Assembly (NCBI GenBank): GCA_001931875.2
Contig: MSJH02000837.1
Location: 207,460 to 271,459, forward strand
Origin: Byssochlamys sp. IMV 00236
Taxonomy: Eukaryota > Ascomycota > Eurotiomycetes > Eurotiales > Thermoascaceae
Direction: 5' to 3'
DNA: 64,000 nucleotides
Shown one piece after another: positions 6,344 to 56,823 of the stretch. Each line of letters starts with the position of its first letter. Within the stretch, counting starts at the first letter, position 1. The notes beneath the pieces are model-generated. The model saw only the letters and a list, made by a program, of their open reading frames with translations. It was not told the origin of the DNA and did not search any database. The translations under genes and the position numbers were made by a program.

Positions 6344-7946
6344 ATGATGCTGTCGCGGTCTGCCCTCGGCCGAAATGCGCCGCGTGCGCTCCGGAAGCAG
6401 TGTGCTGCCAACACCCGCCGTGGCCTTGCTACGCCCTCGACCCCCAACTTCTCCTACGATGTCTCTGAGACGGCCGGTGTGAAGCTGGCCAACCGTGAAG
6501 TCGGCGGTGCGACGACCACTCTCGCGCTGGTCGCTAAGGCTGGTTCCCGTTACCAGCCGTTCCCTGGCTTCTCGACCGCTCTCGAACAGTTCGCCTTCAA
6601 GGTGCGTGAGAATCGCAGGCATTGAACCGCCAAACCGTGCCGGATGCTTGAGGAATGTTGTCAGGCTGATCATACATGCAATTGGTAGTCCACGCTCAAG
6701 CGGTCGGCGTTGCGGATCACTCGGGAGACTGAGCTGCTGGGTGGTGAAGTTTCCTCTTCTCACTCGCGAGAGAACCTCGTCCTCAAGGCCAAGTTCCTGT
6801 CTGGCGACCTTCCCTACTTCGCAGAGCTCCTCGCTGAGGTTGCTTCTCAGACCAAGTACCCGAGTAAGTTGCCTTGGGGTCCATGAACATAGTTTGGGGG
6901 GACCAGGGAGGTTTCTAACCGGATTGGCAGCTTATGAGCTCAACGAGCTTGTCATCAACCTCGTCAAATACAAGCAGAAGACTCTTCTCGAGAACCCCGA
7001 GGCTCTGGCCATCGACACCGTCCACGCCCTGGCTTTCCACCGTGGCCTCGGTGAGAACATCACTCCCACCACCGCCGCGCCTTACGAGCAGTACCTGACC
7101 GCGGAGGCTGTTGCTGAGTTCGCCAAGGGCGCCTACGCGAAGCCCAACGTCGCCGTTGTCGCCAGCGGCCCTAACTCCACCGAGCTGTCCAAGTGGGTGA
7201 ACGAATTCTTCGGCCAGCTGCCTTCCAGCGGCCCCTCCAACCAGTTCCAGCCCCGTAGCACCGCTCCCTCCAAGTACTTCGGTGGTGAGCAGCGTGTCCC
7301 CGGCAAGAACGGCAACGCCGTCGTCATTGCTTTCCCCGGCTCCAGCGCCTATGGCACCGCCGGCTACAAGGCTGAGGCTGCTGTCCTGACTGCCCTCCTG
7401 GGCGGTGAGTCTACCATCAAGTGGGCTCCTGGCTTCTCCCTGCTGGGCAAGGCCACCGCCGGATTCTCTCAGGCCAAGGTCTCGACCAAGAACTTCTCCT
7501 ACTCCGACGCCGGTCTCCTCACCATCTCCGTCACCGGCAAGGCCGACCAGGTCGCTTCCGCCAGCAAGAACGTCGTCGACACCATCAAGAAGGTTGCCGC
7601 CGGCGAGGTTGCCAGCGAGGACATCAAGAAGGCCGCCGCTCTGGCCAAGTTCCGTGCGTTCGAGGCTGGCCAGAACCTCGAGACCGGTCTGGAGATCACC
7701 GGATCTGGTCTGATCCACGGCAACAAGGCCTACCAGCTTGGAGAGGTCGCCGAGGCCATTGACAAGGTCACCGAGCAGCAGGTTAAGGATGTACGTGCCC
7801 CAACTCTCTTATTGTTTCTGATTTCTGATCAACATGCTAACTGATCGCAGCTCGCCAAGGAATACCTGTCCAACAATGCCTCCGTCGCCGCCGTCGGAGA
7901 CCTTTTCCAGATTCCCTACGCCGAGGACCTTGGTCTGACCGTTTAG
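6344..7946 (+). CDS. qcr2: cytochrome bc1 complex core protein 2
   Basis: Core protein 2 of respiratory complex III, on the matrix side of the inner mitochondrial membrane, needed for assembly. Exons 6344-6601, 6689-6863, 6931-7790 and 7851-7946 join in phase to 462 residues. An Arg-rich N-terminus (MLSRSALGRNAPRALRKQ) is a mitochondrial targeting sequence. The rest is an M16 peptidase fold: the place of the HxxEH zinc motif reads ALEQF, so the protein is catalytically dead, as expected for core 2. Strong codon bias (mostly C-ending codons) suggests high expression. A second ATG lies one codon downstream (6347) and is equally plausible as start. Confidence 0.93.
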
Positions 7947-9678: not shown

Positions 9679-11450
9679 CTAGACATCAACCTTCGATCCC
9701 ACAGGCACAGTCTCATGGTGCATAGCCCCGCTTTTGACATCCTTGATTTCAATGTTTTTCTCTTTCGCTTCCTCGATGAGCGCGTCCAGTTTCGAGCCAC
9801 CAGGCTTGGTCTGCCATGGTCGTGGACCGCCTTTGCTGAACATCTCTTCGATCTCTTCTAGAGTCTTGCCGCATGTTTCAGGGTATCTGGATACGAAGTA
9901 GATGTGTTAGATATGGGTTTGCCGGTAGCAAGATGGTAGACACTTACGTGAAGAAGACTTGAATAGCGGCGCCAACACAGAGAACGCCAAAGACGATGAA
10001 GAGCTTCCATGTGATGTTGGCGAAGCCTGGGGGTACGAATAGGCCGAGAGCAAAGTTGAAGAGCCAGTTTCCAACGGCGGAAATTCCCTGTATAGTAAGA
10101 TGTATCAGCGCAGGTTCTCATGTTGCATAGATAGGTAGATGACTGGAGATGATTACCATTCCTGTAGCACGAGTCTCTAGCGACCAGACCTCTGCGGCGT
10201 AGACCCAAGCGACAGGAGCCAGAGTCAGAGCATAGACAATGATGAGGAGATACGAAAAGGCAATGACGGTGTGCGCCTTCCCTCCCATCACTTTGATGAG
10301 GACGTTCAGATTTCCGTCGACGCCGTTGGGGACGTATTCGCCTGATGAGAGCACTCCGCCTACGACAAAGTGGCAGGCGGCCATTCCCAGGGCGCCGTAC
10401 ATGAGAAGACCACGGCGGCTAGTCTTGTCGATGTAGAAGAATATGACGGATGTGAAGACGATGAACAGAGCGTACTGAATTCCGGACGACACCAGGAGGA
10501 CGTTTCCGCTCAAACTGTTTTCTTAGAGTTAGATATCACTTATATCGGGGCTTGGGAGTAAGTAGTAAAGGCACTTACCTCGCCATTTGAAACACATATA
10601 TTACGTAGTATGTGATCATATTTGCACCGCTCAACTGCTGCCACGCCTGAACGGTGAAGCCAGCGATGGTTCGACGCCACATGCCATTCTGGACGAACTT
10701 GCGCCATCCGGGGGCCGCTGTACGTTCTGCAGCCAAGACAGTGGTGATTTCCTCCCACTCTGCAACGACCAGCGGATCGTTTACGTTGCCTCCAGCCTGG
10801 ATTCGAGCCAAGGTAGTGACAGCTTCCTCAGTGCGGTCTACCTTCGCCAGCCAACGTGGCGATCGAGGCAGGAAAGGGAGGCCGATCATCAATAGAACGC
10901 AGGGAACGAGCTGCAACGCCCATGCAGTGCGGAATGATGCCGGGCCAGCGATGAAGGAACATCCATAGCCAACAAAGAACATGATGAAGATACCCCATTC
11001 GATGGCCAACTGCTGGATGACAATGATCGAGCCGCGCTTCTCCTTCTTGGCAATCTCTGCTAGATACACAGGCACCTGAGAGGAAGTGATTCCAACGCAG
11101 ACACCATTGAGGAGACGACCGGCCATCAGCATCCCGAAACCGTTGACTCCTGCCTGGATGGCAGTGCCCACAAGCCACCACAGACAAGCAAACATGATAG
11201 AATCGCGACGACCAAGCTTGTCGGAGATTGGGCCTGCAATGATAGATCCCACGACAGAACCAGCTGCCAACACGGAACCTATGGCTCCCTGGCGCACGCC
11301 ATGAGGATTGTCGAAGAAATCAATGTATTGATCCGTAGCAACAATCGCTGACATGGACGAGATATCGAATCCAAAGAGCATACCACCTACCGTCGCGATA
11401 ATCGCGACAAAGTAGGTGTTATAGATCTTCGGGAACGTGGGTAGCTTCAT
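9679..11450 (-). CDS. MFS sugar transporter (sugar porter family)
   Basis: A 12-helix plasma-membrane sugar transporter. Exons 11450-10579, 10514-10157, 10087-9948 and 9886-9679 join in phase to 525 residues. Sugar-porter signatures are present: DKLGRR after helix 2, GRLLNGVCVG, SPRWL at the end of helix 6, QQLSGANMITYY in helix 7, and PETCGKTLEE after helix 12. The start at MKLPTF is preferred over an upstream in-frame Met because homologous transporters begin just before the first helix. The exact substrate is not readable; pentose- or monosaccharide-type transporters share these motifs. The lone position beside an AT-rich island fits the accessory nature of such genes. Confidence 0.9.
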
Positions 11451-36850: not shown

Positions 36851-37915
36851 TCAGGAAGACGGGGTCGCAACTTTGATTTTCCCCTCTGCTATTGCGACTT
36901 TCAGTAGATATCTGACATCTCGTCGTAGCTTCAGCAGGTGGGTCTCTGAATCCTTGACCTTCTGCAATTCGAATGATATAGTCCCAGCTAGATCGGTCAC
37001 GTCGTTTGAAGCATCCTCTGAAGCATCCATGATATTCTGGCTGATAAGATCGGTTTCCTCACTTATCAGCGCTACAATCCGATCCTTAAAAGCCTCCATC
37101 TCCCGTCGTTGTTGCAATTGCATTTCTTTTAATAACTTTTTCGTGCTGTCAAGGATATTCTCAGCGACTCGGTCAATTTTGTCGCTGATTTCCTTGAGAT
37201 CTTTATGAGAAACGGGCCGCGCAGATGTCGTTTCAGGAGGCGATGTATTGACCCTGCTCACCGCGCCGTGCGCTGGATCCACGGCAGGAAGTCTGCTCTC
37301 ATCCACAAAAGTTTCTGGATCAGTCGAAGTATTCATCCAGTTATCCATACGTTCCTGCCACGCGTTGAGCTTTGCTTGCTCCTCCTGCTCCTCGTCTTGC
37401 TGGGGTTGCTGTCTTGGTGTCGCCTCCAAAGCATCAAGTGGTGGTTTTTTGTCCTCGCATGGTCTTTTTTCTGCTTCTATTCTCCTAGCCCGTCTCAAAA
37501 GTTGTCTGTTCCGTTCCGAATGCCATATCCACTGGCGCACAAACTCGGAGGCAGGAGTAAGAAGTTGCGCATCGTTATACTGACTGGGCTCGGAGTTCAT
37601 AGCGATTCGAGTCCTCTCCTTCTTAATGCTCTCCTTGAATCGCCTTTGACACGACTGCCATGAAAACGTCCTTCTGGCTCGCTTTTGAAACTCTTCACTG
37701 ATCTTAATCCAGTCTTTGCACTGATAATCTGCGTCCCATCTATCACCAAAGGTTTCTTGGCATATTTGCAGGAGGATCAACTCCTGGTGAGCTGTGAGTC
37801 GCCCCCGAGTTGTCGCGATGGGGGTGACCCCTCCTAGCGATCCATTTAACCCATGCATCCCGGTAGGTGTACTGCGGGTAGTAGGAGGAGTAGGATTGTC
37901 CGCGAGGCCGTTCAT
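36851..37915 (-). CDS. Myb/SANT-like DNA-binding domain protein with coiled-coil
   Basis: A single exon of 354 residues. Residues about 38-110 form a three-helix SANT/trihelix-like domain: RLTAHQELILLQICQET, a Trp-rich middle (DRWDADYQCKDWIKISEEF) and FSWQSCQRRFKESIKKERTR. The middle is Pro/Gln/Glu-rich and disordered. The last 130 residues form a long amphipathic coiled coil (DLKEISDKIDRVAENILD, KKLLKEMQLQQRREMEAF). Probably a nuclear DNA-binding oligomer. It lies at the left edge of the cluster of smaller Myb/SANT-like genes to the right but is larger and may not be a direct paralogue. Confidence 0.72.
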   Translation of the reverse strand: MNGLADNPTPPTTRSTPTGMHGLNGSLGGVTPIATTRGRLTAHQELILLQICQETFGDRWDADYQCKDWIKISEEFQKRARRTFSWQSCQRRFKESIKKERTRIAMNSEPSQYNDAQLLTPASEFVRQWIWHSERNRQLLRRARRIEAEKRPCEDKKPPLDALEATPRQQPQQDEEQEEQAKLNAWQERMDNWMNTSTDPETFVDESRLPAVDPAHGAVSRVNTSPPETTSARPVSHKDLKEISDKIDRVAENILDSTKKLLKEMQLQQRREMEAFKDRIVALISEETDLISQNIMDASEDASNDVTDLAGTISFELQKVKDSETHLLKLRRDVRYLLKVAIAEGKIKVATPSS

Positions 37916-38793
37916 ATTTAGGCTTATCGATGAGAGATGGAGATGTCAATCGCGGTGGTCAGAATCCAGAGATATGGTTAATAGAAGATATTCCTAAAGA
38001 AGAACAAAAGGGAAAATCCGAGCTGAGTGGAAATTGAATCTCGAATAAAATCGTATGATGGTTATCGTGAACTCCCCTGACTAGTGAGCGGTAAGACGCG
38101 CGCGACGCGACCTCTCCACGCGATCAGTACGAAGGTTCTCCACCGAGATGGACCAAGAACTGACGATGATCATGCGAGAGCTCTTACGAAAGCTCTTACA
38201 GAGGCTTTTGATAGATATCGTCCTGTTCCTACTAGCTATTCTACCTTTTTCCTATCAGAATCAATTGAGAAATCGTCTACAAGGTTATGTTTCTGCCGGC
38301 AGTATTGGGCAAATATCTACTGGATTGGGTAACTTTGATAGGCGGTGTGCGAACAGACGCGTCTAACCGCGTGTTTGTCGCGATGGCGGTGAAGATCACG
38401 AGACCCGGGCCGAGGAATGAGAAAGAATGTCTCGTTTGCCATGATGAAGCAGCTGTCATGATAACTGCCTCAAGGGTTGATATACGCAAGATACGATACA
38501 GGTTGCAGCATCGAGCAAGGAATCCATATCCTAGTCAACCTACGATGTCACATTATTACACAAAGGAATCGATCTAGAATTACTATGTGAGTAAACACCG
38601 TGGGAGTGACCTTCTGATTCAAATGAGCCTGAACAGCTATCAACGCTAAAGATGAGGGCCACATTGTGTAAAGAATTGTGGTTTCTATGTCCGAGAACCC
38701 ACAGAACAAACTACCATTTCCCAGGAATCCATCAGTTTTCGTGTTCTTTTATTCTGCACGGAACTCTCGTTGCAGCTCTGAATCTACCATAGC
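37916..38793. other. intergenic region within the Myb/SANT cluster
   Basis: No supported gene. An open frame at 38084-38332 (plus) has no motif and no convincing splice partner. Confidence 0.4.
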
Positions 38794-39607
38794 CTAGACG
38801 ACTTCGTGGTAAAAGCCCTCGTCGAGATCAGGATATTCAGCCTGATTTGCACCGGTGAAGTAGCTTGCCATGAATGATCCATCGAAAGCAGTAGTATCAG
38901 TCGCAGCAAAAGCTGCTGCAGAGTCGACATAGCCGTTGGTCTGGCTATTGATTCTCTCCTGCTTTGGGTCCAACAGACTATCAGCCGTTTGAGGGAGCTG
39001 CTTGTCTTTGTCATCTCTCGCATTCTCGATGCTACTGAGAACGCTGGTTTCGGTCTTGTATTCATCCGTGAACGAACTGCCAGACTCGACTTTAATCTGA
39101 ACGGGGGTCTTGATGTTCAACATGCTGATGTCAGAGTCGTCGTCGAGGTTGATAGCGTCGACAACGCTTTGGCCGCGCTTGCCCAAACCGCCCTTCTTGG
39201 ATGGGGTCGATAGAATCTTTGCGTCGAGATTGCTGCGGTGACTTTTCCCGCTCGACGGGGTGGATTTGGTGACACCATTTCTCGGTCCTCGAGGACCACG
39301 AGGAGTCCGGGGTGTGCCTCCGTTTCCACGGCCACGGGGAGGGACAGAGACTCCGTTCGCGGCGGCTTCGGACTTGAGTTGTTCGGCCTGGCGACGGTAT
39401 TTACGGAACTGGCCTTCGATCGAATCATAACTTGCAGAGCGACCATACATGGCTGCCATTCCGTTGTAATCGAGCTGCGCATAGTCAGATATAAGAGCGA
39501 TGATAAAAGCCCCGGAGGAGTAGCTCACTGACCTTAAGGCTAGGGTGAGCTGCGATCAAAGCACTGATGAGGCGTTCAGTGGCATCGGCACTCTTCCAGT
39601 TGACCAT
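38794..39607 (-). CDS. small Myb/SANT-like protein 1
   Basis: Exons 39607-39533 and 39474-38794 join in phase to 251 residues. The start MVNWKSADATERLISALIAAH gives a Trp at residue 4 and a helix; DYNGMAAMYG and ASYDSIEGQFRKYRRQAEQL give the second and third helices of a Myb-like fold, of the type catalogued as a fungal Myb-like DNA-binding domain. The tail is Pro/Gly/Arg-rich (TPRTPRGPRGPRNG), then Ser/Asp-rich with acidic patches, ending EYPDLDEGFYHEVV. Nuclear role inferred. The intron falls right after helix 1, as in other members of the cluster. Confidence 0.8.
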
Positions 39608-41853
39608 TTTTGTAGCTTTCAACGCTTCAGAATGCTACTTAGTTCTTCTATAAATGCATGTCAGTCTTTCTCATCGAGTATGATAAGATATGGAAGACAT
39701 ACAGATTCCGCCTCTGGGTTAAGGTGTGGTGTGGTGTAAAGGATTTGGTGTGTAAAGTGGACAAGAGATGATGTAGAGACAAGGATACCAATGTGTTCCT
39801 CTTCCAGATGGGTGGCGTGAGAGGCAGAAGTAAATCTTGGGCACCCTCAAAGTTTGTTAAGTTGTAGTACAAGTGAAGCTCAAGGAACACAGTAGCCAAG
39901 GGTCGGTGAGAGAACCACTGAGAGCAATAAAATAGTCATGTACACGAAGACATAAGTCCAAGTATACTGAGGTGCGCGCTTTTATAAGTACCAGACTCTA
40001 AACTGACATTCATCTATGGGCTTTTTGTTTTCAGCTCGCGGAAAATATGTCAAGATCTTGGAGACAAAAGGATTTTTTTACACGTAGGGCTCTAATCACA
40101 GAGATTATGGAGGGGTATACTCTCAGTTCTGGCGGGGCTAGCCGCTCGAAGTAGCGAAATCAATAGATATGCACTCGCTGATAAAAGATCCCTCTGTGAA
40201 TTCATCCAACATTAAGGTCCAACGCGACAGGTTTGTGGACACTGATACGACCCATAATGACACGATACAAGGAGCGATCAGCATGGCCATCCCTGTGGGA
40301 TACGGTTTGAATGTATACGCTATCACATTAACGCTGTCTCTAGACTTAAACCGGTTCTTTTTTTATGCAGGGATTTGTCTGATCTGATTGCTGGAATTAA
40401 CTGGAACCAGGGCGAATGCAGTCTACTTTTTGTGATTTATCCAGTCAGAAATATAGATAAGTAGTTAAGGGACGGCTAGAGATGGATGCATGGAAGTACA
40501 TATGACTACGTATAGTGGCGGAAATTGGATTTTAATTTCTACTGCTGCATGTAGCATAGCGATTTGTTCGAATATGCTTTCTTTTAAGATACGAATATTC
40601 TCATGACTCCCTTTTCTGTGCCGGTCTTCAATGACTGGAAATCAGATAGCATCGTAAGCTGTGCTCCCCATCACAGCTATTGGAGGGCGAGTGCTAGCAT
40701 CGCGTGTCGGGACCTGACTAACAGACAAGAGCCAGGACGTCAAGATTCGAACCCAAGAACGTGGGAATTGGAGCTATCAGGACACTTGCTCCAATCCAAT
40801 GATTTCCAACAATGCGGCGCCATCAAGAGGGATATGCAGGAATCGTCTCGAGATAACACACTAACAAACATTATTATCCCAGCCTCACATGTCCTGCGGC
40901 TAGGCAGAAGCCGTTATGCAGTCCTACTGCCCGGGGATGTTGGCAGAAGAGTTACCCAGGCGATTCGGAATCTCGCAATGGCTTTCCGAAAGACATAGGT
41001 CCCTTTCTACCCCTACACCGCCTCAAAAGATGCCGTGATTCGAGCAGCAGAAGCTCCGTTCCTGCGCATATCGCGCGTCATTCACAGGGTCAAAGACGGC
41101 AGAGAGAGGGGTAGAGCTGCGTTTTCCGACAGACTGGACTCGAGGTATACGGAAGTACAGAGGGGAACAGGTGTCGTTGGCGTAAGGTTTGCTGGGTCGT
41201 CCGTAAGCGAGCACGGATCGTCGCGCCTTGTTTGCGTTCTCCACGAGGCGCATCCACCATCATCCACCGGCTGGGATGTCGGCCACGCTGATCCTGTAGA
41301 GAGGCCCTTATAGACTCGAAAAGGGACCCAGGGACAGTTTCTTGTTGGAACTTGGGAGCTGTCACGCATGAGAGATAGATTCTTGCGGGAAAGCTATTGT
41401 TATCCTGCTGCAGGCTTGCTATTTTCTGAGGTGCCTGTACTTCTTTACGCTTCTTCACAGACGACACAGCTACTTATAGAATACACGACTGATCTTTAAC
41501 TTCTACATTGGTCGCGGATGAACGCGGAATCGATACTTGATGGGCCTGAAAAGTGTAGTAATCTGTTAACAGATAACTAACTACGGCAATAAAGCCATCT
41601 TTTCAGACATAATTTCTCAAGTGAACGCAATCTATTCTCAAAAGTGACGGCTGGCTCCCTGGGAGGAGCCGATACTTCTCTCATAACACATTCTTCATTG
41701 TGTGCTTGCTCTTTGTTTTAAAACTCACCTCGTCCTCGACCCTCTCTCCCTCTTCTTCCACCACTCTCATCTCTCACACTGCATCCTATCACCCACTACT
41801 CTCTGAATACTAGCAGCTACAAACCAAGGCATAGCGTTCTTAAGCTTACCACG
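39608..41853. other. long gene-free region within the Myb/SANT cluster
   Basis: 2.2 kb, mostly AT-rich. Open frames at 40603-40998 (plus) and 41090-41467 (minus) show no family motif. A T-arm-like GGGTTCGAATC lies on the minus strand at about 40744-40754, without a convincing tRNA fold. Confidence 0.45.
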
Positions 41854-42652
41854 ATGCCTATGAGGTGGACTCCCGAGACGGACCAGCTTGTGAGCTTTTC
41901 CCATGCTTGTGCTCCATAAACATGCACAATTTGTGTTTTCATTCGAGTCCATCCCTCACGCCACCCTTGACCACAGACTGACATGAACACTGCTATAGTT
42001 GCTGCTGAAGATCCTCGAGACTCATAATCTCTCTGTCGACTCAAAGAAGGTCGCAGACGCATGGCGTAAGCCCATTTCCTCCCCATGCATGACTCCAATA
42101 TTAACCCAACCAGCCGGAACTGAAGCTGGCTCTAAGCCCACTCCCCGCGCCATCACTGAACGTCTCGTTCGCATGCGCGCTCAGGTTAGAGCAAGCGGAA
42201 CTGGAAATTTCAGCATCGGCAGCAGCAAAGGCTCTGCAGCTTCCACTCCTCGCAAGCCGCGCGCTAAGTCTGCAGCAACCACTCCTGGCTCTGGGAAGCG
42301 CAAGCGCTCCGATGCCAATGCGAACGAGTCTGTCAATGGTGACGGCGATGAAGAGATGCAAGCCGATACTCCGTCAAAGAAGCAGCAGAAGCCAAAGCGT
42401 GGTCATGTCAAGAAGGAGTCGACCAGCTCTGAAATAACCATCCCGGACCTCGACACCATTGCCGCTACTCCCGCCAAGCGTACCCGCACTCCTGCTGCCC
42501 ATCCTTCGGATATGGTAGTCTACCAGAGTGAGGGTGAGAACAAATCCATCGACAGCTCCGCGTCCGAGTATGTCCCCGAGGAAACAGTCGGACAGGAGAA
42601 CACGTACCTCAAGGATATCGATGACGAGATGGATGTGCAGGCTTGGGCCTAG
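41854..42652 (+). CDS. small Myb/SANT-like protein 2
   Basis: Exons 41854-41889, 41999-42065 and 42114-42652 join in phase to 213 residues. The N-terminal domain reads MPMRWTPETDQL, then LLLKILETHNLSVDSKKVADAW, then PRAITERLVRMRAQVR, a clear Myb/SANT pattern with Trp residues at 5 and 34. The tail is Ser/Thr/Ala-rich with basic nuclear-localisation-like runs (KRKRSD, KKQQKPKRGH, KRTRTP) and acidic ends (DEEMQ, DIDDEMDVQAWA). The intron positions inside the domain are shared in style with the neighbouring members. Convergent with the 43476 gene. Confidence 0.85.
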
Positions 42653-43475
42653 ATTGGACCACCTGTCTGCTCTCACCTCGTGTCTCATCGACAGTGCTCG
42701 TTTCATTGAGAAATTTTTATGGTCTTCAGCTGTATGGAGCAAAGGGAGAGGAACTTTCAGAAACGCCAGCTTGGGGGGAAATTGGTTTTTGACCACCGGA
42801 TGCCATGTATGTAGATAGATTAGCATGCTAGTCCGTCAGAAATGGCCTACCTTTATGGGATCCACACTTCAGGAGAATATGAGCGGTAGTCTTCCTGTGT
42901 ACTATTAAGATACTGTAGTGCCTAATAAGAGTGGATCTTATTGCTGTTCGCACACAACTATGCGATATGAAGTATTCTTTTTGAATTAGCCGACCTGCGG
43001 AATATATATTTACGAGTACTGCACGAAACGAGCTAAATACTGAACAGACAATCTACGCGGAACGTATAAGTGTCATATGTCTAGTTCGAGGCTTCTGTCA
43101 CACGAAGAACTTCTTATTGTATAATTGGACGGAATACAGAGCGCGCGAGAGGGATCTTGAACTATTTTATTCGCAAACTTTCCATAACAGCGCCTTCGAT
43201 CTCTGTAGAAAAAAGGAGCTTGATATTTCTGTTATTCCTCAATAGACACCTCCCATAGGAAAATCACGACCAACGACCAGGATACAGAAATAGTGACTAA
43301 TCTCCAGAGGTTCGAGCTCAAAAATGGTCATGCGCAGACAGAACATAGGTTCCGTCACCAGAGCTACAAATCCATGTCCCCTAAAAACAACACCCTGTCT
43401 CATGACAACGCACGACGAAACCCAAGTCATAGCGCATGAAGACGTGCATGCTCAGAGACAATAACGAGGAACCTC
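42653..43475. other. convergent intergenic region in the Myb/SANT cluster
   Basis: No gene seen. Holds the 3' ends of the two flanking family members. Nothing else recognised. Confidence 0.4.
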
Positions 43476-43933
43476 TTAGATAGTCTCATTGGTCACATTA
43501 TCGTATTCTTCGATTGGCTCGGCCTTGATCTTCTTCGGAGTAATGGGATCGGCCGCTTCGCTCTCCTCGTCGTTGTCTGTCTTCGCGTTGCTTCTCTTCT
43601 TACGCTTGGACGGAGTGTTCGGGGTAGAACCAGATGCTTTTCCGTTTGCTTTGTCTTTGAGCTTCCTGATCCGGTGCTGAATGGCATACGCGGTACAATC
43701 TGATATTATTGGCGTTAGAAGTCAAGGTAGTAAGTAAAAGCGGTTGTGGAACTCACCGCCACCCATGTACTCCGAGAGCTTGTCATAATCCATCTTCACG
43801 TTACCAACAGCTATGATGGCGACCAGGAGCTAGTATTGAAGTTAGTAGTCTGTGTAGTAAGAGTAGTTGGAGATTTGGTGATATAATGGGAACTTACGCG
43901 CGCATCTGCCTCCGCGTTCCAGCTCATAGGCAT
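43476..43933 (-). CDS. small Myb/SANT-like protein 3
   Basis: Exons 43933-43898, 43829-43757 and 43699-43476 join in phase to 110 residues. MPMSWNAEADAR opens helix 1 (Trp at 5, same MPMxW start as the 41854 protein), followed by LLVAIIAVGNVKMDYDKLSEYMGG and CTAYAIQHRIRKLKDKA as helices 2 and 3. The short tail has a nuclear-localisation-like KRKKRS and an acidic end with a SUMO-type IKAEP site. The shortest family member here, close to a bare domain. Starts about 500 nt from the divergent 44436 gene. Confidence 0.82.
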
Positions 43934-44435
43934 CCTGGGAGAGAGATTTGAACAGTATTGTTGTAGAGGTGCGTAGATACTTTCAAGGTAAAGATAGAAA
44001 GTTACACTGCTCTAGGATGATGATGAGATGATAGGAGTTGAGAGAGAAATGCCCTGTAGCGTGAGAACTGAGAGGCAGAGTCAGACGTAAAGAGACGTTG
44101 AAGTGTTGCTTGTGGAGTGCAAGAAGTGAGGGCTTATCTGGACTCGGAGCTGCCCGCGCACTCTTTGTTTTCATAGATACAAGTAGTCATAAAGGCTTTG
44201 TTCCCAACCTCGCTAGACTAGAAGGGCCCCAGTCTCTCGCTTGCAACACTCATCCACTGTCAACAGTATTTAATCACTCAAATATCACCTCGTCCTTCTC
44301 CTAACATCTTTCATCTACAACTACCACCATCAGATAGCCCTCTACGCGTACGGAAGTGCCTACACTTATCTCTCAGTCAAACAGCCTCGCCATCCTCTAC
44401 ACCTTTCAATACCATCAATACTCCAACCAACCACG
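43934..44435. promoter_or_regulatory. divergent promoter of two Myb/SANT-like genes
   Basis: 502 nt shared between the minus-strand 43933 start and the plus-strand 44436 start. Pyrimidine-rich just before 44436. No strong factor site recognised. Confidence 0.4.
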
Positions 44436-45105
44436 ATGGCTCCGTGGACCGACTCCAACGACCGCAAGTTGCTTCTCACCTTGATCGATCTCAAGTCGAA
44501 GAAGGACTGGGCCCGCAGCGCTGAACTGATGGGTCCCGAGTTCACTGCTGAAGCTTGTCGGTAAGTACCTAATCTTCTGATCCATACTGTCTTGCATAGA
44601 TTCTATGTCAAATACCTGTGTGCTATAATTGGACAGTGGCCAGTGTTCATAGTCTACCAGCATTCATGATAATATAGCGACTGTGATTATTTCTGACCAC
44701 AAAGCCTGCTCACTGATTGTCTACCTCACATGTCACGTGGTCTATAGTTCTCCCTTTCGTCGGATATTGTCCTAGTCTGGCACAGCTGGCTTGAGCTTAT
44801 CTTGACCTTTGTGTACCCATGTTATTTGATATCTTGCTCTGAGAAATACCTCACACTTGGATATATGCTGACCAAATAATAGCCAGCACTTTCGCAAATT
44901 CAAAGATGAGGTCGATGAGATAATCGCAGCCGCCGAGGGCAAGAAGAATACCTCTACCACCGCTGATCCTACGGCCGATACTCCTAAAGGACGCAAGCGC
45001 AAGGCCCAAGCCACTTCTTCCGTCTCTCCTAAGAAGCGTGGCCGCCGCGCTGCAGCCGCTAAAGTCAAGACCGAAAGCGCTACTGAGGATGAGGAGAGCT
45101 CCTAG
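44436..45105 (+). CDS. small Myb/SANT-like protein 4
   Basis: Exons 44436-44560 and 44883-45105 join in phase to 115 residues. MAPWTDSNDRKLLLTLIDLKS is helix 1 with Trp at 4; KKDWARSAELMG is helix 2 with the second Trp; FTAEACRQHFRKFKDEVDEII is helix 3, split by the intron. The tail is basic and Ala-rich (KGRKRKAQ, KKRGRRAAAAK) with an acidic end (TEDEESS), like a small histone-H1-style tail. The intron is 322 nt, far longer than other introns in the window, with a canonical GTAAGT donor and TAG acceptor. Confidence 0.82.
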
Positions 45106-46075
45106 GCTGTTTTGGAGGTACGGACGCCCGGATAGGTTCTGCCTCTTGTCGCGAATCTTGGAGAATAGAACTAATGAATTTGTATTCTTATAGAGATTGG
45201 ATGACCGCCTTGTGCGTTTCCAGCATCTGGCTGATGGATCTTTTTCCGAGTTTAGGAGGGTTCGAATGTTCACTTGAGATGTACGCTCTACAGTAGAGAT
45301 AGTATCAATCGCAGAGATCTTCCTCGCGTATATTTCAGATTATCGTAGAGTCGTACATAAATGTCTCCGTTAGAAAACGCGCTTTCACTTTTTAAACGAG
45401 TATTTATATCTCATTCTCCATTACAATACGACTAGAAAGCACGCAGACAGTTCGATAATGATAGCCCGATGACAATACTGCCATCGAAATGTTGCTGTGC
45501 TCACTTATGGTGGTTTCTGATATATTCCACGGTGCATAGTGAAGATCACATCTTGTCTTGGACAATGGCTAACATACAGTCTTCCTTTGTCGAGGAACAC
45601 AACCGAAGTAAGTAAAGCTCTATGTCATATCAGGTGCGGTTAAAGCAAACGAATGAAACCTCTACAGATCAGGACAGACTAATCCTCAAGCTCAAGCACC
45701 TCATGGAAAGCATTGGGTGGAGACGGCGAGGACTAATGGATACAAGTAGCTGCTGTAGATGCGGAACATTTGCCTTTAAAGGAGGGTTAAAGAAGCAATT
45801 AGTAACTGTGGTTGATATGACTGGATATCACCCTTCAGAATGGACTCAGTCTACAGGAAGCGACTTCTGTGACAAAAAGATAAAAAAGATAAACATTGAT
45901 GATATTAACCATATCCTATCTAGAAACGCCCGAAGCCACCATGGGCAACAGATAAAGTACACATATGTCAAGTGCTGGAGGACATGTCCATGTTGACTTT
46001 GTATCTAATATTATTCCCCTGCGTCTCACCCCTCGTGTGCGGCTTACCCTCGTCATTCTTAGTCTGAGGTTTCGA
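45106..46075. other. intergenic region in the Myb/SANT cluster
   Basis: No supported gene. An open frame at 45622-45996 (plus) has two CxxC-like pairs but no recognised fold, and it overlaps the 3' side of the next minus-strand gene region. Confidence 0.35.
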
Positions 46076-46948
46076 TTATCGGCTTGGGGATGAATATTGA
46101 TCTCCACGTCCTTGTTTTCGAGGTTGTGGTCGTGGCCGTGATTTCCTTCTAATCGATTTGCTTGCACCCTTTCGATTAGCGGGACTGCGACCGCGCTGAT
46201 CGGCTTGAGTCCTGTTTGAGAAGGGAGTGGGAATCTGCACCGATTTGAATCTCCCGGTTTCAGGTGGTGAATATGCCCCGTTACTTGTCTCAGTACCTGG
46301 GCTTGCAGTACTATTGTTCGGCGAGGTCCTTCCTGGTGTATTGTATCTGGCAGCGCGGGCAGATCGATGGTCCTGGCGAGAGCGTTTTTGTCTATTCTTG
46401 TTTCCGTATGTTCTCTTTTTGCGTTTCTCATGAGACACTGCTACGTATCTTAGGATTCTGGCTTATCACTAACCTGGTATGTCCGCTTTCTCGATTGTGG
46501 TGTAGCGGGAGCTGGAGACGACGATTCAGAGCACATGTCACTCTCTTCCTCTGATTCCTCTCCTGAACCTTCCTCAAGATCGTCGGGGATGAACCGTTCA
46601 CTGGTTTGCCGTCTCTCATCCAGCACTGCTCTTGCACGTTTATAAATCTCAGGCAATTTTTTTCTGCGAGGGGTTATATTAGGTACACTCATGTTCCATA
46701 TCGGCCTCTTGGGTATCATACCGAAGTGTATCCGCTGAAACGATACTAGTCCCCAATTCTTCTGCGACGGCCCTGAAGTCGGGCTTCAATGGACTCATCT
46801 CGAGCGCTACTGCTAGAAACAGATGCTCCTGTCGGAGATCCCATTTAATCGGTCGTCGACGATTTATACCGCATGGAGATCTCGGCTCGTGGTCCACTCG
46901 GTTCTCTGTCGTATCGCGCTGGCGATTATTTATCTTCGTCTTCGCCAT
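46076..46948 (-). CDS. Myb/SANT-like protein 5 with RS/basic tail
   Basis: Exons 46948-46722, 46663-46474 and about 46426-46076 join in phase to roughly 255 residues. PIKWDLRQEHLFLAVALEMS (Trp at residue 36), PDFRAVAEELG and ADTLRKKLPEIYKRARAVL give the three helices of the Myb/SANT-like domain after a basic N-terminal stretch. An acidic SEE(E)-rich linker and a long basic C-terminus (RKKRTYGNKNRQKRS, RRKSRPRPQPRKQGRG) follow. The acceptor of the last intron is uncertain (46426 or 46414 both keep frame), which changes four residues. An upstream in-frame Met at 46984 is possible. Confidence 0.72.
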
Positions 46949-49052
46949 CGTTGTTCTTGGGAGGTTCTGTTCAACGAAAAGCACCGGGTCACATAAGGCA
47001 GAGATCGGTGAGTATGCAAGAATTCTCTCTGCTCAGAGACAGAGGACAGACAGTTCAAAGCAATTCTACATGGTGCTAAATACTAAGAGACGGTGAAGCT
47101 AAAACGCGAATCAGACACGAAAGCGCGATTACATTTGGTACTTTTGACAGGCATCGCGACGCAATGGTACATGCTTGAATTAGTTCAGTCAACGGAAAGA
47201 TAATCGCTAAAGTAGTGAGAGTCCAAGGATCTAAGAGGTTAGTATTGATTCAAATTTGAGAGATAAGTCCCAAAATTATAGGAGATAATCCTCTGCAAAG
47301 TGCTTTTTGTGGGTCTAGTTTGGCCCTGCTCGTCCGTCGGATATCACTAGTTTCGAAAGATGCGCAGACATGTCTCAGTCGCGTCTGCAATGGACATTAC
47401 ACGGTGAGATAGATACGCGACCAAGGCCAAGTCGCGAAGGAATTGCTATCCACTTAGATGTTCTTAGATGTAGGAATCGTTGGGAGTAAATATGTACCAA
47501 TGAGTAGTATAACCGTCGATTGCGAGAGAGATATGACAACCACTAGTTCAGCAGTTTATGAATACAATAAATTCAATTACGACTTGGATCACAGTCATCT
47601 AGGTAGCGGATTATATGCCTCCTTGTCAGGTAGCATATCCACAAGTGAGATGGCAAGATTTTTTGTTCTATTATCTCTCAAGACATTGTCCGAACCTTCC
47701 GCGAAAATCGCCATTGCGCTGTCCACATCGAGAACCGTGCACGTAGACGACGCGTGTTGCCGTCGCGGGCTCTGTCTTTTGCATCTTCAGGATTCCTTGC
47801 CTTCGAGGATCAAAAAATGGAACAAACATCTGTTGGAGATAAGCTTCCTCCCCGGTGGCTTCAAAGCATTGCCCATTCCGCTGGGCTACACCATCTCGAT
47901 GGCTTATGGTCAGCAGCACAAACAAGTGGTAGCATGTCTTCACAGCTGGTCTAGATCTCAATGCCTAGTGCTCCTTACCACGTGAGCTGCTCCGACGTAA
48001 GTAGTATATCGGACTCTTTAGACTGCTCAACCAAGAAGGAGAAATCTCCCCTTGGGCGCCTTGAATCAGACTTTGCATACATGTTTAACCTTCCCAATCC
48101 TGCCACTGGTTAATTACATCATAAAGCCTCTCAATCACCTGTTTAGTGGTTCCTCTGTGGGTACGGTAATCCCTGAAACCTCGTTTCCTTTGTACATATC
48201 TTTGGACCTGCGCTTTGTTGGATACCGATAAAGCTGATAACAGGTAACTGGATATGTGGGAGATAACTGGTCCTTGTAATCGGACAAGGATAACTAGTGG
48301 GAAATGCAGTAAATGGTAAGCGTCTACCCATAGGAATTATTTTTCTCTCTGGAATATACACAGTTTGACAACTATTCGGAACAACAACCCGCGGAAAAAT
48401 GTATCGGTCTATTGTAAAGAAATGGCAAAGAAGAAATACAATCCGGAGAGTATCAGTTTAATAAAGAGGAGATCAGACTGCTTATCTACCGTCTGGACTC
48501 TTTGAACCTGAAGGTGGTCTGTGTAGAATTCACCCTCTTTAGGGTCTTTGAGAGACACTTTCGACCAATGGCTAATAAAGGCACTGTGAGACATAGGAAC
48601 GGACAGGGAGGATAAACTTTGCTTCCGTATAGGCAACATCTAGCTCTTTCAAGCAAGTTTATTACACTCCCCTTAGCGTTTGGCCCTGGAAGCCAATCAA
48701 AGAAGGGATCCTAAATTGTAAACGTTCCAGAATAAAGCTTGAACTGACTTCCAGGCTGCTGTATCATACAGATGAAACATGGTTCCAAAATGTTAACATG
48801 TATGTGATCTTTGTTCTCTGGAGGATTTTCTTTGTCGATCCGGATACTTGCATGCTTATCCACCATGAGCAAGTCCTTGGCCCCCAGCAATATTTATTCC
48901 TGACTTCTGTGCAGTAAGCTGATATCCGATCCATCATTCTCAGAAACCATATGTGCATTTCTGATAATCTCAGTGAGATTGGCCCCAATTAGACTCATCC
49001 TTGCACCCAAGTCTTCTTCACAGACCACTATCCACACATATCACTCGTAGCA
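46949..49052. other. long gene-free region within the Myb/SANT cluster
   Basis: 2.1 kb without a recognised gene. Open frames around 47458-47985 have no family motif or splice support. An AAGGAGAAATCTCC element (about 48034-48047) is reminiscent of the palindrome at 8566 but imperfect. Confidence 0.4.
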
Positions 49053-49787
49053 ATGGCTACCGGTCTGCGGCGCAGCAAGACCATGCCGGCCGATGGCCAG
49101 ACGGCCAAGTTCCTCTACACGATCATAAAGCAGCTGGATCTGAAATCGGTAAGTTGGACGGCCTCTCCCCTCTCCGGGACCGGGATAAGGACCTTCGGAT
49201 TTGAGACTGATCGTGGGAACACCGCTCCACAGATCGACTGGAACCTGGTAGCATCGCAACTGGAAATCTCCAATGGACATGCTGCACGCATGCGCTTCTC
49301 TCGGTTCAAGCAGCACATGGAAGGCATTCCGACGAATCCACGAAACCCAAGACCGAAGAAGACTCCGAACAAGAAACCCGCGAAGGGCGGTCTCAAGGGA
49401 GGATCCGGGAAAGAGACCACTCCGCCGCAGATTCAACCGAAAGAAGAGCATCCGGATGTTCCGTTCAACCTGTCGAATCCGTACAACGTCAAGAGTGAGC
49501 CAACCCCCGCGTCAGCACTCTCGCTTGTTCCGCCGGCCATGTCGTCCATAGCGCCTGCAACAGCGCCAATGCAGGCTGCGGCGTCCCAGAACGTCTCGTA
49601 TCCCTTTCTGACGGTAGCGCCGGCAGACCTGACCTTGCATCATCCTGTGCCTACTCATCCTTCGAACTTTCACCTCCAGTCTCATTTCTATCACGGGCAG
49701 CATCTATGGGCTCCTGTCAAGACGGAGCAGCAGGATGATGTGCGTATGAGCGATGTATTCGTCAAGGTGGAGCCACAGGGGAACTGA
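49053..49787 (+). CDS. small Myb/SANT-like protein 6
   Basis: Exons 49053-49148 and 49233-49787 join in phase to 216 residues. The domain is one of the clearest: QTAKFLYTIIKQLDLKS, then across the intron IDWNLVASQLEI, then NGHAARMRFSRFKQHMEGI. The tail is Pro/Lys-rich, then Ser/Pro-rich with His-rich patches, ending in a VKVEP sumoylation-type site. The 84-nt intron (GTAAGT...CACAG) is a multiple of three and has no stop, so an unspliced transcript would also be translated with a 28-residue insert that breaks the domain. Confidence 0.85.
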   Translation: MATGLRRSKTMPADGQTAKFLYTIIKQLDLKSVSWTASPLSGTGIRTFGFETDRGNTAPQIDWNLVASQLEISNGHAARMRFSRFKQHMEGIPTNPRNPRPKKTPNKKPAKGGLKGGSGKETTPPQIQPKEEHPDVPFNLSNPYNVKSEPTPASALSLVPPAMSSIAPATAPMQAAASQNVSYPFLTVAPADLTLHHPVPTHPSNFHLQSHFYHGQHLWAPVKTEQQDDVRMSDVFVKVEPQGN

Positions 49788-50889
49788 CAGGATAATCCTC
49801 ATTGGATTGTGGCCAAAGCACATGAATGTGTCCTTTCTGTATGAATATGTTAGCTTCTCTAGAGTCTCGCAGTGTTATCCCATGTGTAAACCTCGAATAC
49901 CATATTGAACCAAAGTCGGAATGTTCTATTCCTCTCGCTATAGATATTCCATTATCAGCTTAATATCCCGTAGATATTCTAAGCTCTTTAATATCTGTAT
50001 ACTTCAGCATTCAGTATCAATATCTTCATGATTTGTACCAACACTTTCGAGACGTCTGGATAACCTGTGCTCTTGTCTTTGTAGAGGTAGGACACTTGAT
50101 GAGAATCATGGAAGTTCGCCAGCCAAAGAACAAAAAGACCACGCTATGTGGTCGCCAAAAGGGTAGGTCGTAAAAGGCACAATTAGAGCACCTGGATATG
50201 TTACAGCATTGGTGGTTCACTGTGCAGAGCGGCTTGTCCCGTTTATAGTAACTTGTGCTCACTATCTTGTAGATACGATCTATTACAGAACGCCGAGAAC
50301 CCCATGCCATGAAGGAAAACAGAACATGATAAACAGGAGAACCTATATTAAGCATATTAGGAGTCTATATCATATCCTCATCAGAGTGTATAAGCCATAA
50401 TGTAGTTCACTATCTATATCTATGTCTTGATCATAGCAATGATCACTACTATGGCCGTGCAACCACACACAGATATATTATGGTCTATCATACATAGTGC
50501 TAGGTCAGCGTAACGTTACTTTCGCGGACGTAACGCCGCAGTGAATTTGACCCACGAACACTTCCTATGAGCTGTTTTTCTCTCAAAATCGTGTGAGGTT
50601 CATGTCAACATTGATCCAACACACAGAGTTCTTCTCACCTCCTCACATCCTCCTCCTTTCCATCCTTCACCCTCATTGATATCAAGACTCGGATAGTACA
50701 TCCTAAACCATATCGAGGCTCGGGGTTCATTATTCATATCAGGATCAGGTCTGTATATCATATCTTTACTATCCTCGTTGATATATTATGATTCAACTCA
50801 CTTTTCACGGTGAGAGATCAAGCTAATGTCCCATCCATCTCTAGAAAAATCAAATTCAGCATCAAGAATCGAAGACAAAATCGATCATC
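49788..50889. other. intergenic region in the Myb/SANT cluster
   Basis: No gene seen. Pyrimidine-rich tract at 50630-50680 probably belongs to the promoter and 5' UTR of the next gene. Confidence 0.4.
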
Positions 50890-51538
50890 ATGGCTACCAA
50901 GACTGCTAACATCGACTCTGTCCTTTCCAAAGAGGGCGCCGCTCCCCGGGACGATTTCGGGTTCGCTCTCGAATGCATGAAGAGTCTCGATGATAACCAC
51001 AATGTAATAGAATTTCCTTTCCTTTTCATTTCTGTGCCTCCATGTTGTATATGGAAATGATCATTTATACTAATCAGGGAGCACACAGGTCGATCTTACC
51101 AAGGTTGCCAATGCTTTGAACTACACAAACGTTCAGTCTGTCGGTAATAGATACCGTGTCTTCCGCAAGAAGTACGGTATCAACCTGAACTGCGTGACTG
51201 GCTCTGGCGTTGTCACCACCAAGGCCGGCGATGGCGACGAGATCGACAGTCCCAGCCCTGTCAAGACACCTAGGAAGCCTCGTGCTCGCAAGGGCGCGAA
51301 GGTCTCCTCTGAGCCTATCCCGGCTACTGCTGATGACAATTCAAACGATGCTGGCGAAGCTGTTGCCAAGCCGAAGACTCCGCGCCGCCGCAGGACGGTC
51401 AAGGAGACCGTCCAGGATACAGATGTGGACACCCTTCAGGCTGCTATCGACGACGCGGTCGAGAATGTCAAGAAGCGCAACAACACCAAGGTCGTCAAGA
51501 AGGAATCTGAGGATGAGACTGCTGCAGACTCCGAGTAG
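50890..51538 (+). CDS. small Myb/SANT-like protein 7
   Basis: Exons 50890-51003 and 51089-51538 join in phase to 187 residues. DDFGFALECMKSLDDNHN, VDLTKVANALNYT and NVQSVGNRYRVFRKKYGINL give the three helices; the Trp of other members is replaced by Val/Phe, a divergent version of the same fold. The tail is basic with AT-hook-like KTPRKPRARKG and KTPRRRRTVK motifs, then acidic, ending EDETAADSE. The AT-hook-like patches favour minor-groove DNA binding. Co-directional with the 49053 and 52380 genes. Confidence 0.82.
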
Positions 51539-52379
51539 ACGTCGTCAGACTTATTCTGACCAATACGAACGGTACGTTTTGTAGATTGCTATTATATCAT
51601 CACCGGCAATGGATCATAACTGACGTGTCTACTTGACAGGACAGTATCCGAGATCTGATCATGTTGGAACTTGGAAATCTGTATCTGTATGCTTGAGGGT
51701 CACCACTCACTTTGGGGAAGCTGTAAACATTGAAAATTACGTTTTGTCCATCATCGGGAGGAGATCTTGATATTTGCTCGATGCCAGGGGAGATAGTCCA
51801 TGTAGACAGTCTCTGACGCAGCTGTATCTTCGCACAGTAGCACCTAGGTTATTTGTAGCTAGTCGATCTCACTCACCAATAAATTGATATCATACTCATC
51901 TTCCTCTGTACAAAAGTATATATCAACATGGCAACTTTAACAGCATCTAGCAGGTTGAGACTGCGAAGATCCTAAAAGACTCAGGATGTCGTCTTGAACC
52001 CAAGTCTCATTTCTCTTGGAATGTCAATTTGCTATCCGATTGGTCTCGTTCATTCACCGCTATCCTTTGTCTGCCATCTCTGTATTCACTGTCCCCCAGG
52101 TCAAAGCGAGAGTGAGCTAAAGACAACACAACCGCATTACGGCAAATAATTAATGCCACCTGACGCACAATATATCTGAACTCTTCCTCATCATCTGTCT
52201 TCTTCTGTCGGTCACTTTTACACTCTGGACATTCCAGTGCAGTCTCTGACACAGCTTGATCAAAATACCAAGGTAATCAGTTCTATCTTCATACTTCAGT
52301 CTGGTATACTTACTGAGATCCACATTTTGTGCTAGTTCTATCTATAGCAAGAAAACGCAACAAAAAAAAAAACATCAAC
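51539..52379. other. intergenic region in the Myb/SANT cluster
   Basis: No gene seen between two co-directional family members. An A-run directly precedes the 52380 start. Confidence 0.4.
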
Positions 52380-53033
52380 ATGTCTCGTACCAACAGCGAT
52401 GAGCAGCTCCAGTTCCTGCTCAGTTGTATCAGGTACTCGAACAATGGAAAGGTCGGTTCTAGTTTTCATCTTACATCAGTTCTGCAGCTGTATTTCATTC
52501 CTCATGCATATAACAATGCTGACACATAACAGGTTGACTTCACTGAAGTCGCGAAAGAATGCAAAATCGTCTCCAAGGGCGCGGCGTGAGTTGCTTCCGT
52601 CCCATAATCCGCTATCTAGAGTTGAATGGAGTTCATACTAACTTGCATGACAAGCGCCAAACGCTACGAGCGCATGATGAAAGCGAACGGCATCAATCCT
52701 AACGGTGGACCGTGTCCTCCTTCGGCTTCTCCCGACTCCAAAACCAATACCCCGACCAAGGGTGCCACTGCGGGAAAAGCCACTAAGCGCAAGTCGAACG
52801 GAGGCAGTCCTGAGTCCAAGAAGGCGAAGATCAAGAAAGCTGCGATCGAGAATGCGGAGAAGCTTGTTGTTGCGAAGGAGGAACCATCTGACAATGAAAG
52901 CAAAGATACCCCTTCTCACACTGCGTATCTCAGCCAGGGAGCGATGGCGGACGAGGACATTGACAAGGACTTGTTTGATCAGTTCTGCAACACTGGCGAG
53001 GATGATTCTCAGGAGGAGGAGCTCTTCGCGTAG
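52380..53033 (+). CDS. small Myb/SANT-like protein 8
   Basis: Exons 52380-52451, 52533-52585 and 52655-53033 join in phase to 167 residues. DEQLQFLLSCIRYSNNGK, VDFTEVAKECKIVSKGAA and AKRYERMMKANGINPNGG are the three helices, with the arrangement of the 50890 protein (VDxTxVA block). The tail is Lys-rich (KKAKIKKAAIENAEK) then strongly acidic (DEDIDKDLFDQF, EDDSQEEELFA). The first donor, AAG|GTCGGT, is less usual. It lies close to the abp2-like gene, with convergent ends 644 nt apart. Confidence 0.8.
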
Positions 53034-53676: not shown

Positions 53677-56030
53677 TCACATATCGCCCATGACCGCTTG
53701 CAGAATATTTCGTTTATATTGCCCGAGAGCTTGGTCTTTCTTTCTCATTTGTTTCTTCAGCTTCAAATAACGCTGCTTCCAAGTCGACTCGGACGTGGAG
53801 CTTGTGATTTCGTCATCGTCAATGTCATCATGAGAGAGGTCATCAATGGTCGTAGTATCATTCAGATCGTCGGGGAACACCGTATCTTTTATTGTGGTCG
53901 TGGCACCGGTACTGTCATAAATTGTATTCATCACAATTCCCGGGGCAGGACAGTACTCGTACGATATGATATAGTGCCAGTTCCTGAGAACATTCATAGT
54001 GCTGCTTTGCGGCTCAGTAGTTGATGTGTTCGGCTGCATCTTCACTGTCAACGGCCCACATGAGCCATAGTTCATACATTGGCCTCCAATTCCAAGGTGC
54101 ACAGCACACAACAGTGACATGGAGTCTGGGTTAATTCCAAAAAAAGAAGAACTTAATTTCTTAACCACAGATTCGGCCATATCGGTGGCCTCTTCGCTAG
54201 TTAGGGGAGCGGAGCGACCAACAAGTTTGCCGTGAAGCAGGCGACGGCTGAAGAGCTTGACCAAGCTGTCTATGTATACTCTCCGTGATGGCTGCTCGCC
54301 ATCCGTTTCAGCGTCTGATTTACTTCGAACTGTCCCATAACGTGGTGTGCTTGCAACGGAGCCATTAGTGCTATATTTGTCGGCGGCGGGACTACCCGAT
54401 ACACTGTCCAGCCCATTTATCAAGAGGGTGGGAGGCGTTGCAAGTCGAACAGGGCCGCTTGGGAGCTGGGGAACTTGTAACTGGAGCTTTGTTGCCTTTG
54501 AAATCGGCTGCTGGGGAAGGGGTTGTCTCTGGGGCGGGCTGGAGGACCGTCTGCCTGTGTCATTCCCATTCTGCGGGGCTAGAGCCGGTGACGAACGAGC
54601 GACTGGAGTCTCAGCAAAGGAGGAAACAATCGGCCGAGTGTCGACTTGGAAGGAAGAGAACTGTCCAGATGATGTGGTCGCTTTATTTGGTGGCCTGCCA
54701 CGAGTTTTCCTTGGAGAATTCCCATGAGTTGACCATGCCGAGGAAATTGCAGGTCCATGTCGCCTTCGCGTGTGGTTCCTCTCTGCCGATGCAGGTATCA
54801 CGGCTGATCGAGGTTCCACCGCCATGAACTCCTCCGATGCATGGCGGTTAGCTGGAAGTATAGCCGAATGTGGATAGGCGGCAGGAGACGTATGCCGTTC
54901 AAATGGCCTCCACCGGAAGTCTTGGCTCTGGTCTATTGCCAGGCCGGTATTCGAACGATGATGAGGAAATGGTGATGCCACTACCCATGGATCTGTCGCA
55001 TCGATGTCCCCTGGGAAAGCGCTGAATGGGATAGCACTATGCGGGAAATTTGCAGCATGACTGGAAATGTCAACGCTATGCAATCCAGCCATGGAAGTGT
55101 CCAACATCGGTCTTTTAGGCGTGCTTGAGCCCTCACTATCTTCTGCCTTCCTTCTACCGCGTTTAGGTTTCCACTCAGGCAGAAGAGACGTCAAGGCCAG
55201 ATCTTCCTCTAAGGGAACGCCATCTCGACTTTCACTGGGCATTCTGTCGGAAGGAATCTGAGTGTAATAGCTGTGGGGGTGACCAAGACAGTATTCAAAA
55301 AACGCATCAATGTGCATTGCTCGCATCCATCGCTATTCGAAATTAATCATAACTCGCTGACAATTTACTTGGATGGACGTACCTTTAGCCGGACCGCATA
55401 CTGCTGTACCTTTTGAGTACTCTGCTTCTTTTCCGCGGAAGGTGGCTCCACTCCCAACTCAGTGGCCAACTGAATCCACGTCTTCAGCTCTTTCTTATCC
55501 AGCTTCACAATGAGTTCCCATAACGTAAAGACGCTGAAACTCTTTCCGTCACTCCGTGGTGGTGATCGAAAGACCCGACGCAGTTCAGATGTGTCCACCG
55601 ATGACGGGACACTGGGATTGCAATACAGAATAAATGCAATATATGCATCGTCCATGGTTTGATCACTGAATTCGGGAGATGGCAGAAGTCGAGAACTGTC
55701 GGATCGCAATGACTCATTTGCGTGGTTGGGACGAGATGTGCCGTCGAATAGAGGTGGAGACATGGAAGGACCTGATTCTCGAATGGAGGTGACAGCCTGT
55801 AACAATTTTGTTCTTGGGGATGATTGAAAGTGTGGTGGGATATTTCTAGGTTGTATAGATGGAGAAATAGAAACTCTCGATCTGCTGCAAGCGCCAGACG
55901 GTGAGACACTCCGTACAGATGAATCGAAACTCAAGGAATACCTGGCGTATTGGTCGAATGGCGCCTGGCTTCGCGATGGCCCTCCATGTTCTGCTGTATT
56001 ATGAGCAGAATCAGAATACTGACTTTCCAT
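53677..56030 (-). CDS. ARS-binding protein 2 (Abp2) family protein
   Basis: Exons 56030-55383 and 55332-53677 join in phase to 767 residues. The conserved Abp2 domain is at about residues 118-240: DDAYIAFILYCNPSVP, TSELRRVFRSPPRSDGK, FTLWELIVKLDKKELKTWIQLATELGVEPP, QKVQQYAVRLKRWMRAMHIDAFFEYCLGHPHSYY. This family includes S. pombe Abp2, which binds ARS DNA. The flanks are long, disordered and Ser/Pro-rich with basic patches (KPKRGRRK), and a C-terminal helical block (STWKQRYLKLKKQMRKKDQAL). Nuclear DNA binding is likely. Its place at the end of a row of Myb/SANT-like genes is notable. Confidence 0.72.
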
Positions 56031-56823
56031 GCCCGGCGAGTCTTGGTATGTTAATGATGGTAGTTAATGATGGTGGGCGCCGGGACATGCACAACAGCAA
56101 TGGCTATCCGGAAACCGTTTCAGCGTGCATCACAAGCAGTTCATTATCGTCCACATCAAATCGCTATAACAGCAGACAAAATAAATCCACAATATAGAGC
56201 AGAATATGAGTGGGTCACTGGGAATAGCAGTAACTTTGCGACATGTAGACAGGACTGAAGCTAACGGGTGAGCGCAAAGTGAATTTGGTTGATATAGGTA
56301 TGTGGAGCAAAATAACAGAAAAGCATTTCTCATCGTTTGGATTCGGTATTCGAATGATGAAGGCACAAGGAGTTCTCCAACTCCATCGCATAGCCAAAGA
56401 CTAAGCGCAGCTGAAGCTGTTGGCAGCTCCTGAGATGCAAGAGGGGCAGCTGCTCGTGTTGCTATTTTAGGACATGAGCGATGCCTTCTTGGGTCAACAG
56501 GGCTCGGTCCGCGGGCTGGCAAATCATCAGGCGCCCACGCAGAGTATTATTATTGATATTATTGAAACCGGACAGTTTATAAGGCCAAAATGTCATGTAA
56601 CAATATCTGCTGCTCCTTGGTGCGATAACAAAAAAGGCTAATATTTTCAATAGTGTATATCATCCAGCCTGATCTTGGATAGCCATTGCAACTCTAAGCT
56701 CTGACAAACACACACCATCGGCTAAGGTTTGTAAAAGCGTTTCGATACCTAGGTAACTTAACTATATACTGTTCTATATGTCTGTTACAGTGACCTTCTT
56801 TTATCATATCTTCCATTGTGTTT
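56031..56823. other. intergenic region, no gene seen
   Basis: Upstream of the abp2-like gene and downstream of the GT8 gene. No gene or structured element recognised. Confidence 0.45.

Follow-up and report, generated by a model that had tools for sequence, protein, structure and literature searches.

Eight Myb/SANT-like genes side by side

Why should a run of small genes for Myb/SANT-like proteins lie side by side on one fungal contig, and what might their products do? The run occupies positions 36851-53033 of the window, the whole stretch of 64,000 nucleotides analysed here (C834:207460-271459, part of a 47.4 Mb fungal assembly). A sequence-only reading had placed nine genes there, called g1 to g9 below, and had given all of them one Myb/SANT-like domain. 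All nine were confirmed at those positions by spliced models without internal stops, each with a proper stop and with GT-AG introns. The common domain held for eight: g2-g9 (38794-53033) encode one Myb/SANT-like domain, probably of three helices in each, at or near the N-terminus. They form two adjoining blocks, A (g2-g5) and B (g6-g9), whose profile comparison gave 93.9% against at most 1.6% in 40 shuffled controls. The gene g1 was ruled out as a family member by the same comparison, in which it reached 0.8% and 3.3% with the two blocks.

The search against the Pfam fungal Myb-like profile supported the assignment for two genes and not for the other seven. At the cut-off of 27 bits for Myb_DNA-bind_8 (PF22980), g7 (67.2 bits) and g9 (84.9 bits) passed, g8 (23.9) and g6 (15.9) stayed below it, and g2-g5 had no match to this profile; none of 31 g3 relatives exceeded it. 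No Myb match of any kind was obtained for g1-g4 in the Pfam search. The match of g5 to PF00249 was weak, with 16.6 of the required 24.4 bits, and its relative from P. lecythidis scored 23.5 bits. In g4, three helices were found in the Myb arrangement, and its PDB matches included the SANT domains of RSC, BAF, and CoREST alongside DNA-binding Mybs, with Z tied. Helix 3 carries a net charge of +1 to +5 in 7 of the 8 genes, g5 being the one in which it is not basic. The tails of g2-g9 are of low complexity, with basic and AT-hook-like patches C-terminal to the domain.

Introns fall at similar points in the domain within subsets of the genes, not at one position for all. Directly 5' of the motif [ILV]D[WFYL], where helix 2 begins, a phase-0 intron recurs in g2, g7, g8, g9, and a paralogous gene of contig C481. 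Two other introns (phase 0 and phase 1) are common to g3 and g4, and in both g5 and g6 a phase-2 intron splits an Arg codon at helix 3. The clustering exceeds chance. When the 47.4 Mb genome was searched with single sequences (E up to 10), no second copy of g2, g3, g4, g5, g6, or g8 appeared outside this locus, and just one gene besides g7 and g9, that on C481, exceeded the Myb_DNA-bind_8 cut-off.

SUMO-acceptor consensus sites in the tails

PMC7096222 gives psi-K-x-E (psiKxE) as the SUMO consensus. Sites of this type had been proposed for several tails, and the tails of g2-g9 hold 8 against 0.8 expected, a count reached by none of 5000 shuffles (maximum 6). Six of the eight genes carry them; g6 and g9 of the window have none. 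Among relatives, the motif occurs in 104 of 104 g7 proteins (16 of 120 rows were dropped, and 42 of the 104 are metagenome proteins), in 107 of 120 g9 proteins, and in 72 of 79 g3 proteins (12 of 91 rows were dropped, namely eight proteins of the g4/g5 type and four that were fragmentary or weak). These counts lie 10- to 19-fold over shuffles, the excess being about tenfold for g9 and g3. When one protein per genus was taken, g7 relatives carried psiKxE in all 33 genera, at 3.67 per protein versus 0.2 in shuffles, and the result was unchanged when the shuffles kept psiK pairs. A site starting no more than 12 residues from the C-terminus was present in 32 of the 33 genera and in 81/104 g7 proteins, in 8/120 g9 proteins, and in 12/79 g3 proteins.

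Related patterns did not share this behavior in the relatives: psiRxE, psiKxQ, and inverted sites showed no excess, and psiKxxE and psixKE at most 2.7-fold. As a control, nine flanking open reading frames (ORFs) were examined; eight lacked psiKxE, and a coiled-coil ORF had 3 against 1.5. In the same genome, 20 loci with classical Myb domains had 13 against 10.8 (1.2-fold). SUMO-binding motifs showed no broad excess in the relatives, apart from a small one of SIM-b in 6 of 79 g3 relatives (0.076 versus 0.006). Judged from these motif counts, the simplest account is that the tails would be under selection for sumoylation, and the excess turns SUMO-dependent regulation in the nucleus into a concrete hypothesis.

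Age of the families

A tree of 47 domains (58 columns, many unresolved forks) separates blocks A and B at a fork of 96/94 and recovers g3, g6, g7, and g8 as one clade each; g9 was not resolved as a single clade. The g3 and g7 clades contain mixed fungal classes, that of g7 comprising 16 rows, chosen by us, from at least 6 classes. A recent expansion, in which paralogues would group by species, is ruled out by this tree for g3, g7, g8, and g9. The tandem expansion suggested by the sequence-only reading therefore stands as an ancient event and not as a recent one, and the closeness of the families in five classes, described below, agrees with this. Fast evolution, likewise suggested, does not apply to the g3 domain or to the g7 domain, the latter being 84-98% identical in most named species (range 57-98%, among the best 120 of 330 relatives; for g9, the best 120 of 128 were taken). 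It may fit g4, g5, and g6 as fast-changing members. Their relatives were found in Paecilomyces only, among the matches listed, and their lineage limits are soft because the search detects close relatives and misses distant ones.

The gene on C481 (27496-30585), a lone g7-like paralogue, is sister to g7 in the tree. It has the same helix-2 intron and one VKIE followed by acidic residues, and it ends in VIDLEGDLE, which we take to resemble a SUMO-binding-type motif.

Proximity of the families in other genomes

Proximity elsewhere was read from locus tags and from the sizes of the longest contigs, in 42 genomes outside Paecilomyces with at least two families among the matches listed. Two or more families occupy the same contig in 37 of the 42 (longest contigs of equal size), the exceptions being A. 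ambiguus and Malbranchea, with large contigs, and A. tanneri, Pleopsidium, and Candelina, with contigs below 48 kb. They are no more than 10 locus tags apart in 28 of the 42, a rough figure because the tags of some portals are not positional. Close families were seen in five classes of Pezizomycotina: Eurotiomycetes, Lecanoromycetes, Geoglossomycetes, Coniocybomycetes, and Sareomycetes. Thus g7 and g9 are CIMG_06261 and CIMG_06263 in Coccidioides immitis, 003592 and 003589 in Xylographa opegraphella, 009210 and 009202 in Geoglossum umbratile, 000079 and 000075 in Chaenotheca, and 006502 and 006506 in Sarea. Emmonsiellopsis has g3, g7, and g9 at 006355, 006362, and 006364, and Lasallia has g7 and g3 at 10243 and 10246. 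In Xylona (Xylonomycetes), two of the families share a 1.4 Mb contig.

Paecilomyces variotii (Eurotiomycetes) gave the best match for the window proteins. One strain has g6, g5, g4, and g1 at tags 6091, 6092, 6093, and 6096, with no annotated gene between g4 and g6, and another has g6 at 4161 and g9 at 4164; the remaining gaps would just fit g2 with g3 and g7 with g8. Five annotated proteins from Thermoascus, three Aspergillus, and Penicillium (P0214, P0222, P0223, P0225, P0226) hold g7 and g8 domains together, most simply as merged models of neighboring genes, or else as real fusions.

Gene models and setting of the locus

In block A, g2 (38794..39607, minus strand, 251 amino acids; exons 38794-39474 and 39533-39607) has an IKVE site in its tail, and g3 (41854..42652, plus strand, 213 amino acids; exons 41854-41889, 41999-42065, and 42114-42652) has TPRKPR and VKKE. 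The hub of this block is g4 (43476..43933, minus strand, 110 amino acids; exons 43476-43699, 43757-43829, and 43898-43933), with an IKAE site; g5 (44436..45105, plus strand, 115 amino acids; exons 44436-44560 and 44883-45105) has an RGRR patch and a VKTE site. Block B begins with the divergent g6 (46076..46948, minus strand, 251 amino acids; exons 46076-46414, 46474-46663, and 46722-46948), whose last intron was placed using the identical annotated protein P0215. The other three lie on the plus strand: g7 (49053..49787, 216 amino acids; exons 49053-49148 and 49233-49787), with three psiKxE sites, one of them C-terminal; g8 (50890..51538, 187 amino acids; exons 50890-51003 and 51089-51538), PF22980-like and with a VKKE site; and g9 (52380..53033, 167 amino acids; exons 52380-52451, 52533-52585, and 52655-53033), the hub of the block. 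The proteins of g6 and g9 are identical to annotated P. variotii proteins, and those of g4, g8, and g1 come within 1, 3, and 5 residues, respectively, of the best-matching relatives listed.

The neighbor outside the family, g1 (36851..37915, minus strand, 354 amino acids), is intronless and combines a different, unclassified N-terminal region with a heptad-like C-terminal part. An ORF of 446 amino acids on contig C809 (180300-182800, 413-1753) weakly resembles that N-terminal part (26%, E 0.007) and has no Pfam match; the similarity suggests that the two may belong to a second, unclassified family. Upstream, the cluster is flanked by TIP49/RuvB-like, GYF-domain, and UFD1 genes, and downstream by genes for ARS-binding protein 2 (Abp2) and a family 8 glycosyltransferase. 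The adjoining Abp2 gene (window 53680-56063, minus strand, two exons; PF09441, 95.9 and 164.6 bits) also encodes a DNA-binding-type protein.

The word TCTCTCA lies within 700 bp upstream of 7 of the 8 cluster genes and is commoner there than in shuffles. As a shared promoter signal it was set aside, because promoters rich in C and T are common, a single upstream region serves both g4 and g5, the start taken for g6 in this count was off by one base, and only cluster genes were compared.

What the cluster may do

We tentatively favor, at a little short of an even chance, an old locus whose single-Myb proteins would be nuclear, regulated by SUMO, and probably repressive, and whose genes were retained together after tandem duplication. 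One single-Myb/SANT-like gene would have given rise to eight divergent paralogues by old tandem duplication, and these would have stayed adjacent. We infer that the three-helix domain binds DNA or chromatin, weakly and as a monomer, with the basic and AT-hook-like patches increasing affinity; sumoylation of the tails would recruit or assemble repressive complexes, and several of the proteins perhaps act jointly. SUMO is often repressive on transcription factors, which makes a repressive, possibly collective role our best guess. Since gene order is scrambled quickly in filamentous ascomycetes, a cluster of small nuclear genes that keeps its neighbors through several classes suggests that the genes are regulated together or that their products act jointly.

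The proteins could instead be ordinary small Myb-like transcription factors linked by descent only, the linkage having no function and the SUMO motifs being no more than nuclear proteins usually carry. In favor of this possibility are the single Myb-like domains, the basic tails, and the tendency of filamentous ascomycete genes to remain on one chromosome (PMC3219968). Yet mesosynteny scrambles order, whereas two-thirds of the sampled genomes (28/42) keep families within 10 tags, and the psiKxE excess is absent from the classical Myb loci of this assembly; we consider descent alone doubtful. It is unlikely that the products are protein-binding, SANT-type chromatin adaptors whose domains would contact histone tails or partners and not DNA: the tied PDB matches of g4 and the non-basic helix 3 of g5 speak for such a role, but the positive helix 3 of the other seven and the patches after the domain speak against it. 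That they are fast-evolving factors of genome defense or silencing which expanded in this lineage appears very improbable. The restriction of listed g4, g5, and g6 relatives to Paecilomyces would suit that idea; against it stand the age of the g3, g7, and g9 families and of their proximity, and the high conservation of the g7 domain.

A bolder version of the SUMO-regulated locus, which we regard as improbable, likens it to Hox genes: single-Myb proteins linked since before these classes split would be co-sumoylated at selected tail sites and would build a repressive, SUMO-dependent body on DNA, the unlinked C481 paralogue serving as reader. For the SUMO-regulated locus in general, the SUMO-site signature offers a direct test, with the cluster proteins as candidate SUMO substrates, and confirmation would give a function to a widespread, unstudied fungal domain family. 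Among the matches listed in our literature searches, which excluded subscription journals, no paper dealt with this cluster, nor did the accessible part of PMC8396895 contain anything on it.

Comparison with known systems

By score, g7 and g9 are members of Myb_DNA-bind_8, g8 lies slightly under the cut-off, and g2-g6 fall outside. To our knowledge, clustering and SUMO-rich tails are no part of the definition of PF22980; no paper on Myb_DNA-bind_8, PF22980, or IPR054505 was found among the literature matches listed. With classical Myb/SANT proteins (PF00249), the cluster proteins probably share the three-helix fold, and the g5 relative comes close to that cut-off. In contrast to them, the cluster proteins are small and have one domain, MylA reportedly being an example of a fungal two-repeat Myb protein; the 39 PF00249 matches of the genome lie elsewhere, and the 20 such loci counted above lack the psiKxE excess.

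In animal transcription factors, SUMO synergy-control sites are proline-flanked [IV]KxE motifs. Such motifs occur in 75 of 104 g7 relatives, a likeness of motif only, whereas they are rare in the relatives of g9 (9/120) and g3 (5/79). Finally, the mesosynteny of filamentous ascomycetes, as described in PMC3219968, keeps genes on one chromosome, whereas the families of this cluster remain within a few genes of each other.
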